A stretch of 64,000 bases of DNA from Vulcanimicrobiota bacterium. GTDB lineage: Bacteria > Vulcanimicrobiota > Vulcanimicrobiia > Vulcanimicrobiales > Vulcanimicrobiaceae. The notes under the pieces are model-generated. The model had not been told where the DNA came from and made no database searches. It saw nothing but the letters and a program-made list of their open reading frames with translations. Of the stretch, positions 19,496 to 33,079 are shown piece after piece (position 1 is the first letter of the stretch; each line of letters starts with the position of its first letter). A program made the translations under genes and the position numbers. The DNA lies in NCBI GenBank assembly GCA_003168375.1, contig PMSI01000003.1, forward strand, positions 248,001 to 312,000. Direction: 5' to 3'.

Positions 19496-19522
19496 TGACC
19501 CTTCGACAAGCTCAGGGTGACA
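19496..19522. repeat. 27-bp dispersed repeat, copy 1
   Basis: Core CCCTTCGACAAGCTCAGGG flanked by TGA and TGACA. An identical 27-base copy lies at 29491-29517. The ends CCCT/AGGG are partly self-complementary. Here it lies between the aminotransferase stop region and the methyltransferase start. Confidence 0.9.
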
Positions 19523-23620: not shown

Positions 23621-24786
23621 ACGAGGTCGCCGCGGCGACGGCATGCCTCGTGTGCGGCGAGGCGAGCGGAGCGCCGGCGTACCGCTACGACGGCGCGGTC
23701 TCGGTGTCGTCGACGGCGCGCGCGATCGCGGTGCCGACGATCGTCTACGTGTGCGAGATCTGTGGCCACGGCCAAACACCCGCGCTCGCGGACATCAGCG
23801 GCTACTATGATACAGCGTACAACGTCCACCTCGAGAGCGACGATTCCGACGACCTCTACGACGAGCGCGACGGCGTGCCGCTCTACCGCGCGCAGCACCA
23901 GGCGAACGTCGCGCTGGAAAAACTCGCGCTCGCGCCCGGCGCGTCGGTTCTCGACTACGGCTGCGGCAAAGGGATGTCGCTGCGCGCGCTGCTCGCCGCG
24001 CGCCCCGATCTCGACGGCGCCGTGTTCGACGTCAGCGATGCGTATCGCACTGCCTGGGACGCGTTCGTTGCGCGCCGCAATCAAGCCGCATACACGACGC
24101 CGGACTCGTGGGCCGGGCGCTTCGACGCCGTCCTCTCGTTCTTCGCGCTCGAGCACGTGAGCGATCCGCGCAGGTTCCTGACCGGGATCCGCAAGCTGCT
24201 GCGACCGGGCGGCGAGCTGCACCTGACCGTCCCCAACGTGCGGCGCAACGTCGGCGACTTCATCGTCGTCGATCACGTCAACCACTTCATGCCGAGCTCG
24301 CTCCGCCGCGCGCTCGCCGAAGCGGGTTACATCGACGTGCGCATCGACGAAGAAGCGCACGACGCCGCGTTCGTCGTGAACGCGCGGCGCGGGTTCGGTC
24401 GTGCCGGCAAGATCGCGCCGGCCGAAATCGCCGGGTACGTCGCCGAGGCTCACCAGTTTGCGGCGTTTTGGCAGCGAGCGAGCGACGCCGTCGCGTCCTT
24501 CGAGCGCGAGCGAGCCTGCGGCCGCAAGAGCGCGATCTACGGCAGCGGCTTCTACGGCGTGTTCATCGCCAGCCGCCTCGCGAATCGGGACCCGCTTGCC
24601 TACTTCCTCGACCGCAACCCGCACCAGCAAGCCAAGCGCATCTTCGACCGCCCGGTCCTCGCGCCCGACGCGATCGAAGACGACGTCGAGGTGGTCTACG
24701 TCGGGCTCAATCCGGCCCGCGCCCGCGAGATCGCGGCCGGGGTAGCCCCGCTGCACCGGCGGGATCGCGAGTTCTTCTACCTGTAG
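23617..24786 (+). CDS. Class I SAM methyltransferase with zinc-ribbon N-terminus
   Basis: A 389-residue protein with a three-part layout. CLVCGEAS and CEICGHGQ form a zinc site (about 9-50); LDYGCGKGMSLRALLAARPD is the SAM motif, FDAVLSFFALEHVSDPRRFL and LLRPGGELHLTVPNVRRNVG follow; from about 285 a second nucleotide-like domain begins SAIYGSGFYGVFIASRLANR. It is related in layout to sugar C-methyltransferases, but the hallmark 'EFPH..~YHEH' region is replaced (VPNVRRN...VDHVNHFMPSSL), so it may methylate another position. ATG overlaps the PhyH stop; it is the last gene of the five-gene operon. Confidence 0.85.
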   Translation: MNEVAAATACLVCGEASGAPAYRYDGAVSVSSTARAIAVPTIVYVCEICGHGQTPALADISGYYDTAYNVHLESDDSDDLYDERDGVPLYRAQHQANVALEKLALAPGASVLDYGCGKGMSLRALLAARPDLDGAVFDVSDAYRTAWDAFVARRNQAAYTTPDSWAGRFDAVLSFFALEHVSDPRRFLTGIRKLLRPGGELHLTVPNVRRNVGDFIVVDHVNHFMPSSLRRALAEAGYIDVRIDEEAHDAAFVVNARRGFGRAGKIAPAEIAGYVAEAHQFAAFWQRASDAVASFERERACGRKSAIYGSGFYGVFIASRLANRDPLAYFLDRNPHQQAKRIFDRPVLAPDAIEDDVEVVYVGLNPARAREIAAGVAPLHRRDREFFYL

Positions 24787-28618: not shown

Positions 28619-29493
28619 CCACGAGCGCGGCATCGGCCGGCGCCGCTGCGCCGGCGAACGACCCGAAGCAGCGTGCCGTGAGCGGGCGGCGCATCCTGAT
28701 CGGGCTGCTCCTCGCCGCGATCGGCTTCGCGGCGGTCGCGTGGCCGCCCGCGTTCACCGTGCTGGCGCTCGCCGTTGCGACGGGCTGCATTTACGAGTTC
28801 GCCGGTTTGTCGGCGAAAAAGGGCCCGGCGCTGGAGTTGCCGGTCGCGATCGCGGCGGTGTGGGCGTACGTGATCCTCACGCACTTCGGGCTGATCCATC
28901 GCTACGAGGGGCTGCTGCTCGCCGGGACCGTGATCGTCGCGCTCGCGACGGCGACCTTCACCCGCGAGTCGGGCGTCTTGGCGCGCAGCGGCTACACGCT
29001 GCTCGGCGTGCTGTATATCGGCAAGCTGATGACGTATTTCATCGCGATTCGCGCCCTGCACGACGGTGTGATCTGGACGGTCTGGATCATCTTCCTGGTC
29101 GCGTTCACCGACATCTTCGCGATGCTGATCGGCACGGCGTTCGGCAAGCACCGGCTGACCCGGCTTTCGCCGAAGAAGACCGTTGAAGGCGCGGTCGGCG
29201 GCTTTGCGGCCGCCCTGCTCGCGGGCGCCGCGATCGGGCTCGTCCCCTCGGTCCACGTCGCGTGGTGGCAGGGCATCATCGTCGCCGCGATCACCTCGCT
29301 CGCCGCGCAGGCCGGTGACTTGGTCGAGAGCGCGCTCAAGCGCGACGCGAAGGTGAAGGACGCGGGCTCGCTGATCTCCGGCCACGGCGGCGTGCTCGAC
29401 CGCTTCGACTCGTACATCTTCGCCGGCGTGGCGTTCTACTTCGCGCTCTACCTGATCGGCGTGATCTCCGAAAACCACCTGGTGAACTCGTGA
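28615..29493 (+). CDS. cdsA: Phosphatidate cytidylyltransferase
   Basis: A 292-residue inner-membrane enzyme forming CDP-diacylglycerol. About eight hydrophobic segments, beginning RILIGLLLAAIGFAAVAWPP. FTDIFAMLIGTAFGKHRLTR, SPKKTVEGAVGGFAAALLAG, and the family end signature SAAQAGD-like LAAQAGDLVESALKRDAKVK with SLISGHGGVLDRFDSYIF are all present. The first 23 residues are Ala-rich and soluble. It overlaps uppS (ATGA) and dxr (GTGA). Confidence 0.95.
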   Translation: MTTSAASAGAAAPANDPKQRAVSGRRILIGLLLAAIGFAAVAWPPAFTVLALAVATGCIYEFAGLSAKKGPALELPVAIAAVWAYVILTHFGLIHRYEGLLLAGTVIVALATATFTRESGVLARSGYTLLGVLYIGKLMTYFIAIRALHDGVIWTVWIIFLVAFTDIFAMLIGTAFGKHRLTRLSPKKTVEGAVGGFAAALLAGAAIGLVPSVHVAWWQGIIVAAITSLAAQAGDLVESALKRDAKVKDAGSLISGHGGVLDRFDSYIFAGVAFYFALYLIGVISENHLVNS

Positions 29494-30665
29494 CCCTTCG
29501 ACAAGCTCAGGGTGACAAACGGCGCGTCGCCATCTTGGGGTCGACCGGCAGCATCGGGCGGCAGGCGCTGGACGTGATCGCGCGCCATCCGGGGCGGTTC
29601 GAGGTCGCCGGGCTCGCGGCGGGACGCAACGTCGAGCTGCTCGCCGAGCAGGTAGCGCGCTTCGCTCCGCGCGTCGTCTCCGACGCGTCGGACGGCGCGC
29701 GCGGGCTGCACGCCGTCGCTTGCGAGAGCGGTGCCGATATCGTGCTCGCCGCAACCGACGGTGCGGTCGCGTTCGACGCCGTGTTCGCCGCGGTCGACGG
29801 TGGGATCGACGTCGCGGTCGCCAACAAGGAGCTGATCGTCGCGGCGGGCGAGCTGCTGGTGGCGCATGCGGCGCGCAGCGGCGCGCAGCTGCTCCCGGTC
29901 GACAGCGAGCACTCCGCGATCTTCCAGTGCCTGCAGGGTGCGCCGCGCGAGCGTGTCGCAGCGATCGTCGTCACCGCGTCGGGCGGGCCGTTTCGCGACC
30001 GTTCCGCCGACGAGATCGCGTCGGCGACGCTCGCCGAAGCGCTCGCTCACCCGACCTGGCAGATGGGCGTCAAGAACACGATCGACTCGGCGACGCTGAT
30101 GAACAAGGGGCTCGAGGTGATCGAGGCCGCGAAGTGGTTCGGGCTCCCCGGCGAGCGGATCCACGTCCTCGTCCACCGGACCTCGGTCGCGCACGGCTTC
30201 GTCGTCTTCACCGACGGCAACGTCGTCGGCCAGTTGGCGGCACCCGATATGCGGCTCCCGATCGGCTACGCCCTAGCCTATCCCGACCGCCTCGACGACC
30301 GGCCGCACAGCGACGACCCGATCGAGGCGCTCGGCGGCGAGCGCGGGGCCCCGACGACGACCCTCGGGTTCGAGCGGCCGGACCAGGCACGCTTCCCGTG
30401 TCTGCGGCTGGCTTACGAGGCCTTGGCCGCCGGGGGGACCGCCCCGGCGATCCTCTCGGCCGCGAACGAGGTAGCGGTGGCCGCCTTCGTGTCGGGAACC
30501 ATCCGCTTCGGCGAAATAGCCGTTTGCATCGAAACCGTCCTCGATCGGGTCGATACTAGAGACGTGAGCCTCGAGGCCGTTCGTATGGCTGATCGCTCGG
30601 CCCGAGACGCGGCCCGGGCATTCGTCGTTGAACGTACAAGCGCGCCCATAAACCGGAGCCTATGA
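29490..30665 (+). CDS. dxr: 1-deoxy-D-xylulose 5-phosphate reductoisomerase
   Basis: A 391-residue NADPH-dependent enzyme of the MEP isoprenoid pathway. VAILGSTGSIGRQALDVIA binds NADPH; VAVANKELIVAAGELLVAHA, PVDSEHSAIFQCLQG, IVVTASGGPFRDRS, and KNTIDSATLMNKGLEVIEAA give metal and substrate ligands. The usual HPQS motif reads HRTS here (VLVHRTSVAHGFV), with the substrate-contacting His kept. GTG at 29490 overlaps the cdsA stop. Codons 2-9 (TLRQAQGD) are the 27-bp repeat also seen at 19496, so the natural N-terminus is partly repeat derived. Confidence 0.95.
   Translation: MTLRQAQGDKRRVAILGSTGSIGRQALDVIARHPGRFEVAGLAAGRNVELLAEQVARFAPRVVSDASDGARGLHAVACESGADIVLAATDGAVAFDAVFAAVDGGIDVAVANKELIVAAGELLVAHAARSGAQLLPVDSEHSAIFQCLQGAPRERVAAIVVTASGGPFRDRSADEIASATLAEALAHPTWQMGVKNTIDSATLMNKGLEVIEAAKWFGLPGERIHVLVHRTSVAHGFVVFTDGNVVGQLAAPDMRLPIGYALAYPDRLDDRPHSDDPIEALGGERGAPTTTLGFERPDQARFPCLRLAYEALAAGGTAPAILSAANEVAVAAFVSGTIRFGEIAVCIETVLDRVDTRDVSLEAVRMADRSARDAARAFVVERTSAPINRSL
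29491..29517. repeat. 27-bp dispersed repeat, copy 2 (inside the dxr start)
   Basis: Identical to 19496-19522 over 27 bases, core CCCTTCGACAAGCTCAGGG. Here it follows the first base of the dxr GTG and encodes TLRQAQGD in frame. Confidence 0.9.
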
Positions 30666-31762
30666 CCGCCGAACGAATCATCGTCTACCTGCTGATGCTC
30701 TCCGTCCTCGTGGTGCTCCATGAGTACGGCCACTTCTTGGTGGCGCGCAGGAACGGCGTGCGGGTGACCGACTTCGCGTTCGGCTTCGGCCCGACGATCG
30801 CCAAGTGGACTTCGCCCCGCAGCGGCACCGTCTATCGCTGGAACGTCTTCCCGATCGGCGGCTACTGCCAGATGAAGGGCGAGGACGGGAAGTCGACCGA
30901 GGCGGAGCAGCAGCGCGAGTTCCGTACCGCCGGCACCTACGACCACGACAACTTCCAAGCGAAAAGGCCGCTGCAGCGGCTGGCGATCGTCGTCGCCGGC
31001 CCGATCGCGAACTTCATCGTGGCGCTGGTGCTGTTTTTCGGCGCGGCGCTGCTGTTCGGGATCCCGGGCGGCAAGGTGACGACGCAGATCTTCCAGCTGC
31101 TCCCCGGCTACCCGGCGGCGCGCGCCGGCATGCACGTCGGCGACCGGATCGTCTCCGTCGACGGCCGCACCGTCTCGGACGGAAACGCCTTGGTCGATAT
31201 CATCCACGCGTCGTTCGGCAAGCGCCTGCACGTCGTGTTCGAGCGCGACGGCAGCACGCAGGCGGTCGACATTACGCCGGTCGCGGGGCCCGACGGCAAA
31301 CGGGTCGGCCACCTTGGTTTCCAGCCGCTGCCGCAGACGCAGCGCGTCGGGGTCATCCAAGCGGCGAGCTCGGCGTGGGGCCAGTTCACCGGGATCACCG
31401 GCGCAACGCTCGGCGCGCTCGGTTCGCTGATCTCCCATCCCTCGACGGTCGCCGGACAGTTCCAGGGCCCGATCGGGATCGCGCGGGTCTCCGCGCAGGC
31501 ACAGCAGTTCGGTCCGGCGATTTTCCTCTCGCTGGCCGGGATGGTGTCGATCTCGCTGGGGATCTTCAACCTGCTGCCGATCCCCGCGCTCGACGGCGGG
31601 CGCGCCGTCTTCATCCTGGTCGAGATGGTCCGCGGACGGCCTGTCGATCCGGAGAAGGAGGCGCTGGTCCACGTCGGCGGCTTCGCGATGCTGATCGTGC
31701 TGATGCTGGTCGTGTCCTATCAGGACGTGGCGCGCGCGATCGCAGGTCAGGGCGCCTTTTAG
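30662..31762 (+). CDS. rseP: RIP metalloprotease RseP
   Basis: A 366-residue membrane-embedded zinc protease for regulated intramembrane cleavage of anti-sigma factors. VVLHEYGHFLVARRNGVRVT carries HExxH in the first membrane helix; AIVVAGPIANFIVALVLFF is the second; one PDZ domain (PGYPAARAGMHVGDRIVSVD) follows; ISLGIFNLLPIPALDGGRAV gives the third zinc ligand Asp. Only one PDZ domain is seen, unlike E. coli (two). ATG overlaps the dxr stop. The long hairpin element begins at the base after its stop. Confidence 0.95.
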   Translation: MTAERIIVYLLMLSVLVVLHEYGHFLVARRNGVRVTDFAFGFGPTIAKWTSPRSGTVYRWNVFPIGGYCQMKGEDGKSTEAEQQREFRTAGTYDHDNFQAKRPLQRLAIVVAGPIANFIVALVLFFGAALLFGIPGGKVTTQIFQLLPGYPAARAGMHVGDRIVSVDGRTVSDGNALVDIIHASFGKRLHVVFERDGSTQAVDITPVAGPDGKRVGHLGFQPLPQTQRVGVIQAASSAWGQFTGITGATLGALGSLISHPSTVAGQFQGPIGIARVSAQAQQFGPAIFLSLAGMVSISLGIFNLLPIPALDGGRAVFILVEMVRGRPVDPEKEALVHVGGFAMLIVLMLVVSYQDVARAIAGQGAF

Positions 31763-31921
31763 GGTGCTGAGCCAGATGTTCGCGCACAAAATCTCGCTTG
31801 GCTTTTCGCCCGGCTCTTCGTCGTTCTTCGGTCACAACGCTACGGCGTTGCTCCCTCATCACTCCTCGATCCGAGCAAAAATCCTACGCGATCTTTTGCA
31901 CGGAACATCTGGCCCAGCACC
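31763..31921. repeat. 159-bp imperfect palindrome (MITE/REP-like or structured RNA)
   Basis: The outer 19 bases (GGTGCTGAGCCAGATGTTC, 31763-31781) are complementary to 31903-31921 at 18 of 19 positions. Pairing continues inward with gaps (for example CGGCTC-type blocks near 31808 and 31868). At the exact centre CAACGC-TACG-GCGTTG (31835-31850) forms a stem with a UACG tetraloop, the very stable C(UNCG)G type. It starts directly after the rseP stop and ends three bases before the ispG ATG. No target-site duplication was recognised. Symmetry of arms and loop about one centre argues that it is a single element. Confidence 0.85.
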
Positions 31922-31924
31922 CGC

Positions 31925-33079
31925 ATGATCCGTCTGCGCCGTCACACCAAGGCCGTGCTGCTCGAGAACAAGTCGGCTTGGTCGAAGGACGCGAAAAAAG
32001 CGTGGATCGGCGGCGACCACCCGATCGTGGTGCAGTCGATGACGACGACCGACACGGCCGACGTCGACAAGACGCTGGAGCAAGTCTATGCGCTGGCGAT
32101 GGCCGGCTGCGAGGTCGTGCGCGTCACCTGCCAAGACACCCGCGACGCTGCCGGGTTGCCGCAGATCGTCGCCCGGTCGCCGGTCCCGATCGTCGCCGAC
32201 GTTCACTTCGACCACCGCATGGCGCTCGCCGCGATCGAGGCCGGCGTCGCGAAGCTGCGGCTCAACCCCGGCAACATCACCGACCCGGTGAAGACCCGCG
32301 AGGTCGTCAAGCTGGCGATCGAGCGCGGGACGCCGATCCGTATCGGGGTGAACATGGGCTCGCTGGCCCGCGATCTCGAGCAGAAGCTCGGCCACACGCC
32401 CGAGGCGCTCGCCGCCTCGGCGCTGCGCCACGTCGAGCTCCTCGAGGAGCTCGGCCATACCGACATCATCATCTCGGTCAAGGCGCACGACGCGGTCACG
32501 ACGATCTACTCGTACCGCCTGCTGGCCAAGCAGCTCGACGAGCGCGGCACGCCCTACCCGCTGCACCTCGGCGTCACCGAGGCCGGCCTGCCGCGCGACG
32601 GGACGATCAAGTCCTCGATCGGGCTGGGCGTCCTGCTGTTCGAGGGGATCGGCGACACGCTGCGGGTCTCGCTCGCCGCCGACCCGGTCGAGGAGGTCCC
32701 CGTCGCCTGGGGGATCCTCAAGGCGCTCGGCCTGCGCGAGAAGGGGTTCGACATCACGGCCTGCCCCTCGTGCGGCCGGGCGGAGATCGAGGTCGTCGAG
32801 CTTGCTCGGATGGTCGAGGCTATCGCCAAAGAGTACACGGCCCCGGTCAAGGTCGCTGTAATGGGATGTGTCGTGAACGGCCCAGGCGAGTCTAAGATGG
32901 CAGATGTAGGTATAGCAGGGGGCAAGGGCAAGGGCGCCATCTATCGCAAAGGCGAGTTGGTGGGGACCTTCGCCGAGGCTGACCTCCTGGGCCGCCTGCG
33001 GCTCGAGATCGAAAAGGTCATCGAGGAGCAATACCCGGACTACAGACACGAAATTCACCGTGAGCCGACCACTGTTTAG
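31925..33079 (+). CDS. ispG: 4-hydroxy-3-methylbut-2-enyl diphosphate synthase
   Basis: A 384-residue [4Fe-4S] enzyme of the MEP pathway, acting two steps from its end. GGDHPIVVQSMTTTDTADVD, GCEVVRVTCQD, VPIVADVHFDHRMALAAIEA and LRLNPGNITDP form the TIM barrel; the C-terminal cluster domain has ACPSCGRAEIEV and MGCVVNGPGESKMADVGIAG with the three Cys and Glu ligands. No ribosome site is visible before the ATG, because the upstream bases are the arm of the palindromic element; translation may depend on folding or on coupling to rseP. Confidence 0.95.
   Translation: MIRLRRHTKAVLLENKSAWSKDAKKAWIGGDHPIVVQSMTTTDTADVDKTLEQVYALAMAGCEVVRVTCQDTRDAAGLPQIVARSPVPIVADVHFDHRMALAAIEAGVAKLRLNPGNITDPVKTREVVKLAIERGTPIRIGVNMGSLARDLEQKLGHTPEALAASALRHVELLEELGHTDIIISVKAHDAVTTIYSYRLLAKQLDERGTPYPLHLGVTEAGLPRDGTIKSSIGLGVLLFEGIGDTLRVSLAADPVEEVPVAWGILKALGLREKGFDITACPSCGRAEIEVVELARMVEAIAKEYTAPVKVAVMGCVVNGPGESKMADVGIAGGKGKGAIYRKGELVGTFAEADLLGRLRLEIEKVIEEQYPDYRHEIHREPTTV

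Follow-up and report, generated by a model that had tools for sequence, protein, structure and literature searches.

A hairpin element in the rseP stop codon of a Vulcanimicrobiota genome belongs to a dispersed, probably IS630-mobilised family whose fold appears to be selected on one strand

Hairpin-forming MITEs of bacteria are usually seen as by-products of insertion sequences. In the Correia/NEMIS elements of Neisseria and the ERIC/IRU elements of enterobacteria, the ends are conserved in sequence. These elements are 100-170 bp long with TA ends, are often co-transcribed with genes, and form a stem-loop over their whole length in RNA (PMC2229807). The 107-bp RUP element of pneumococcus has ends like those of IS630-Spn1 and was proposed to be moved in trans by IS630 (PMC2229807, PMC3049150). 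Members of the IS630 family (e.g., IS630 and ISY100) duplicate TA upon insertion, a few ISY100 insertions in vitro lacking part of the TA on one side (PMC2170065), and a preference of IS630 for the TA in CTAG is announced in the title of Tenzen and Ohtsubo 1991, as cited in PMC2170065. In addition, copies of the Coxiella MITEs QMITE1 and QMITE2 give folded small RNAs (PMC5896051), and in 36 cases a neighbouring gene takes its stop codon from a BOX repeat of pneumococcus (PMC3049150).

In the 64,000-nucleotide stretch analysed in the present study (the window), positions 31762-31922 form a 161-nt near-perfect hairpin, far beyond chance, which is one copy of a previously undescribed dispersed family of ~163 bp. 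Like RUP, it is short and non-coding, with a TA target and, in one carrier genome of its family, IS630-like ends, but RUP belongs to another phylum, differs in length and sequence, and has no reported covarying arms or conserved single-strand fold. The whole-length stem-loop is shared with Correia/NEMIS and ERIC/IRU elements, whereas the ends of the present family differ widely yet pair, and its tip is conserved across two phyla. As in the few ISY100 insertions mentioned above, the TA of the window copy is complete on one side only; in contrast to IS630-family elements, the hairpin has no transposase gene and has a structured interior. Compensatory maintenance of the fold was not reported for QMITE1 and QMITE2, which are also of another size and have other ends, and the modular boxA/B/C build of BOX repeats differs from fixed-length hairpins in TA/CTAG.

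A covariance model of the family matched the whole element on the minus strand (31762-31922, 161 bp) over all of its positions (1-162 of 162; cmsearch, 154 bits, E 2.9e-33). Within the family, this is the purine-rich "top" strand, which folds better than the other. On this strand, the 5' basal arm or terminal inverted repeat GGGTGCTGGGCCAGATGTTC (31903-31922) and the 3' basal arm or terminal inverted repeat GAACATCTGGCTCAGCACCC (31762-31781), both also backed by family covariation, constitute a 20-nt inverted repeat with 95% complementarity, confirming the outer-arm pairing of the original prediction with one base added per side. The conserved tip CGAGGAGTGATGAGGGAGCAACGCCGTAGCGTTGTGACCGAAGAACGACGAAG (31815-31867, minus strand), recognised by identity, invariant columns in the family alignment and cmsearch matches in Sphingomonadales, contains tandem G-A internal loops separated by one or two standard pairs, and the C(UACG)G loop described earlier was recovered on the plus strand (31841-31844, with the element's centre at 31842). 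The gap between the rseP stop and the ispG ATG is filled as had been proposed, but the true ends of the element are 31762 and 31922. The predicted fold reached -96.4 kcal/mol on the minus strand (shuffles -48.6 +/- 3.6; z -13.2) and -65.4 kcal/mol on the plus strand (shuffles -39.5 +/- 3.7; z -6.9), and no shuffle folded as well as the element on either strand. DNA energy parameters ranked the strands in the same way (-50.4 for the minus strand vs -36.6). The concern that folding might be no better than in shuffled controls was thus dispelled for both strands, and the transcript strand does fold well, but the stronger structure lies on the minus strand. A candidate second copy at 24424-24564 (21 bits, E 0.005) was discarded, as it showed no excess fold (z -0.1) and a coding-like sequence.

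The source genome (4.43 Mb, 7 contigs) harbored one copy, and blastn revealed copies in many relatives at unrelated places; the element is therefore single-copy in its own genome but, contrary to the possibility that it was unique to this site, not so across relatives. About 60 copies were read, nearly all of which were rods that hardly varied in length and kept the tip but diverged strongly in their arms, and 30 copies were used to build an alignment (A1) and a covariance model (R1). R1 matched 65 of the 99 GTDB-family genomes and, elsewhere in the order, 3 genomes from another family. Three genomes each had at least 29 candidate copies, and presence was patchy even within one genus. Across 100 distinct copies, the length was 156-166 bp, and the family is non-coding, multi-copy and dispersed. 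A search for the exact tip pattern in one genome per species (84,980 species) yielded matches in Eremiobacterota MAGs and Sphingomonadales, among the latter Sphingomonas gilva (18), an Altererythrobacter MAG (8), and a Croceibacterium (1). In these three, the tip hairpin usually sits inside a larger CTAG-flanked element (~260-300 bp) that also contains another hairpin and has near-perfect ends of ~30 bp. The tip pattern was not found in viral contigs, and blastn of one Eremiobacterota and one Sphingomonadales copy gave no match in plasmids. No Rfam 15 family reached its gathering score on the window element, the copies had no relevant Rfam match up to E 1, and the literature searched, of which coverage was incomplete, contained no description of the element. 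Two variants were also observed: a divergent rod (L102 in G038), whose tip has ordinary pairs and a different loop in place of the G-A loops, and three S. gilva copies (L281, L282, and L285), whose tip and second hairpin enclose smaller perfect palindromes (GGGCCCCCGCAAAGTAATACTTTGCGGGGAGCCCC and others) that leave the rod unbroken.

Comparison of G122 with G029 gave two reciprocal pairs of filled and empty sites, in which insertion at TA had duplicated the TA: L172:3429-3591 reads CGCAT-TA-[element]-TA-GGACG where L221 has the empty CGCAT-TA-GGACG, and L221:4027-4189 is filled where L172 is empty. TA within CTAG/YTAR flanks the copies: of 100 distinct ones, 64 are bordered by TA at both ends and 33 by CTAG at both ends. 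In the 64-kb window, CTAG occurs 12 times vs 179 expected from composition, i.e., ~15-fold more rarely. Furthermore, among ~83 flanks reading toward the element, in which genes were crudely called by codon-position GC, 52 had a neighbouring stop codon made of TA followed by the element's opening base. Insertion sites of the CTAG/YTAR kind are rare in this GC-rich genome and often stop codons, and the element's first base, G, restores a stop codon as TA+G on either side; with the stop codon rebuilt, insertions at gene ends would therefore be nearly harmless. In the window, the rseP-side target TA (31760-31761, plus strand) together with G 31762 constitutes the TAG stop of an ORF (30662-31762, plus strand; stop at 31760-31762, common to the element), which we take to be rseP (site-2 protease) from the HEYGHF and NLLPIPALDGG motifs in its translation, following the original naming and general knowledge. 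On the ispG side, GC occupies 31923-31924 where the second TA is expected, which is lost or changed. The window copy probably entered the rseP stop codon after the lineage split from its sisters, with one TA probably lost after insertion. Solo TAGGGTCCAAACYC ends without an element were also observed beside CTAG/TTAG in S. gilva (L296, L301, and L306), and these could be excision footprints or end fragments.

Considering its dispersed copies, TA duplication and IS630-like ends, the last represented by two elements of G026, an IS630-type MITE is the most fitting class for the element, the autonomous partner being a caveat. G026 harbored two complete IS630-family insertion sequences, both in CTAG sites. 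One of them (L103, 274-1395; 356-aa ORF) has the end TAGTGCTTACTTGC, which matches TAGTGCTTGGTTGC of five G026 hairpins at 12 of 14 bases, and the other (L105, 914-2083; 364-aa ORF) has the ends TAGTGTACTGAGGC/TAGTGTACTGCGGC, which resemble another hairpin end type of the family. Together with the empty sites and the terminal inverted repeats of the family, these features bear out the earlier suggestion of a MITE-like mobile element, whereas its REP-like version found no support, as the RAYT/Y1 transposase is absent from most carriers and no REP layout was seen. Movement is likely to occur as DNA, the element being non-autonomous and an IS630/Tc1-mariner-type transposase being supplied in trans, which would bind the terminal repeats, insert at TA and duplicate it. 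An IS630 gene (DDE_3, PF13358, E 0.001) was not found in the source genome or in the multi-copy genomes G036 and G055, nor was IS630 found in most carriers tested; the mover is therefore absent or unrecognised in these three genomes, and IS630 acting in trans is the best-supported mover rather than a proven one. As a further point against this reading, the ends of the family vary beyond what one transposase should allow. By eye, only ordinary-looking genes, and no cargo transposase, were seen between two same-strand copies that lie close together in L203. The TAGGGTCCAAAC ends in S. gilva were considered as insertion-sequence ends and rejected, as most are the elements' own paired ends and a few are solos. 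An Rfam DUF3800-VIII RNA above gathering score was observed at L164:1748-1812, 1.3 kb from the Croceibacterium (Sphingomonadales) copy. A link to DUF3800 was likewise rejected, with PF12686 present in 10 of 99 genomes and absent from most high-copy carriers, and no Rfam DUF3800 model matched the element, which sets it apart from the DUF3800 RNA motifs.

RNAalifold analysis of A1 uncovered 45 pairs, of which 36 had double changes; in helix 1 of the family, 21 of 22 pairs showed double changes. Double changes occurred in 288 cells, compared with 82 for shuffles and 44-85 for slid versions, with 93% paired cells (shuffles, 71%; slid partners, 42-48%) and a covariation score of 0.635 (shuffles, 0.21; slid partners, 0.08-0.14); the copies are related by descent, and thus these counts and the strand counts below, which cover non-independent copies, overstate the independent events. 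Among non-redundant copies, mean pairwise identity was 0.61 in the outer arms and 0.84 in the tip, where A1 has invariant columns. In all 34 non-redundant copies, the top strand was the more stable one, and the bases juxtaposed in its fold were G-T 155 vs A-C 25 and A-G 146 vs C-T 5, with G-T 41 vs A-C 6 in the outer 20 nt alone (strand bias was also computed on a larger redundant copy set). The nearest copy, at another locus of a sister genome (L004 in G001), has 12 differences from the window copy, 10 of them in stems, and keeps all pairs with 3 double changes and 4 single changes via G-U. The covarying arms and one-strand pairing therefore suggest that a fold of RNA or of single-stranded DNA is under selection, and judging from the sequences, selection on folded RNA is the simplest account in Eremiobacterota; single-stranded DNA, which stays in view since DNA parameters favour the same strand, is less likely. 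The outer arms in Sphingomonadales are near-perfect without strand bias, and thus the argument for RNA rests on Eremiobacterota and the shared tip. In Eremiobacterota, the element persists as a ~163-nt rod with compensatory changes keeping the fold on one strand, and the top strand would act as folded RNA (less likely as single-stranded DNA). Between co-directional genes, there is a tendency for the top strand to lie antisense (20 vs 9, p 0.06), which is not what read-through RNA would predict. The structured RNA of the original prediction thus gains from strand-specific pairing and family covariation as a predicted fold, but on the strand opposite to ispG.

The most probable explanation overall is an IS630-type MITE in the rseP stop codon, with a fold kept on one strand in Eremiobacterota, for which RNA is the simplest reading. 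It is unlikely that the palindrome is instead kept by DNA processes, without selection on a single-strand fold, either by template switching or gene conversion between the arms or by the need for matched transposase ends. The terminal repeats of DDE elements must match and the Sphingomonadales arms are nearly perfect, as such processes would have it, but homogenisation is strand-symmetric, yet G-T far exceeds A-C and A-G far exceeds C-T; pairs mid-rod, away from the ends, also covary, and the conserved tip mismatches have not been homogenised. Symmetric DNA processes are not expected to give such base asymmetry and compensated pairs. A mover from the IS5/IS4 family (DDE_Tnp_1) appears improbable: such transposases can also use YTAR targets, where the copies sit, and they are present in G029, G122, G026, and G000, but PF01609 is absent from the multi-copy genomes G036, G055, and G131 and from both Sphingomonadales genomes tested, and the DDE_Tnp_1 loci contained no insertion sequence with matching inverted ends. 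Slightly more doubtful still is mobility of the folded strand itself, through a Y1/REP transposase acting on single strands or through reverse transcription, although the structure lies on one strand and DNA folding parameters favour that same strand. Y1_Tnp (PF01797) was found in 2 of 12 carriers and absent from 10, unlike what REP/REPIN sequences with a RAYT would show, and the reverse transcriptase PF00078 was found in 4 and absent from 8, including the near-complete G036, G029, and G131, which does not fit a retron or retroelement; moreover, TA duplication is a signature of IS630 DDE transposases. Accordingly, DDE_Tnp_1, Y1_Tnp, and RVT_1 were each rejected as drivers, being missing from several multi-copy carriers.

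The reading with the lowest probability, very slight in our estimation, is that of a cis-acting RNA controlling ispG (riboswitch, attenuator or translational switch). The ispG ORF (31925-33079, plus strand), with IspG homologues in 56 of 60 relatives and a start region alike in close relatives, has its ATG at 31925, two bases past the element end, and the start codon is intact despite the insertion. The whole gap is filled, the mRNA strand folds well, and no SD-like motif was found upstream of ispG, all of which would suit such control. However, SD-like motifs are not the rule in the window (13 of 44 crudely called ORFs; chance 15%), and the rseP-ispG gap is also short in relatives without the element (TTCTGACGCCATG in the closest relative), indicating no visible displacement of a ribosome-binding site; the proposal that the element replaces one is thus right about the missing motif, but no displacement is visible. 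The closest relative (G004, IspG 97% identical) has the junction TTC-TGA-CGCC-ATG, and the element was missing from every relative's rseP-ispG junction that could be read; hence, there is no conserved position before ispG of the kind expected from a cis-regulatory RNA. Copies elsewhere adjoin unrelated genes in all orientations, and the better fold is antisense to ispG. Confined to this genome or lineage, the insertion is not an evolved ispG switch, so that the suggested control of ispG was not upheld. The copy at rseP-ispG is likely a passenger, which may have weakened or altered the coupling of the two genes, and in three dimensions the hairpin would put the rseP stop near the ispG start.

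Within what could be checked, three features are new: ends that covary while pairing on one strand, a tandem G-A tip common to two phyla, and ends that rebuild stop codons. A wider reading, offered tentatively as a possibility, is a MITE superfamily that links Eremiobacterota with Sphingomonadales and whose selected unit is an RNA or single-stranded DNA module with the tandem G-A tip, while the ends turn over, the RNA having a function of its own. If so, one RNA module would hop under different transposases, hidden in stop codons that it rebuilds itself, and the RNA could, for example, bind a host or transposase protein. The folded single strand of these hairpins appears selected, and the family thus lets selection on a selfish element's RNA be put to the test, with stop-codon rebuilding as an explanation for the harmless residence of such elements at gene ends. 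An uncatalogued structured element of this kind could pass for an ispG riboswitch, and a covariance model suffices to find its family. Apart from the element, the window contains a short palindromic repeat CCCTTCGACAAGCTCAGGG at 29493-29518, inside the 5' end of the called dxr gene (start codon GTG at 29490; its protein begins MTLRQAQGDKRR), with a second copy of its core at 19501-19516.
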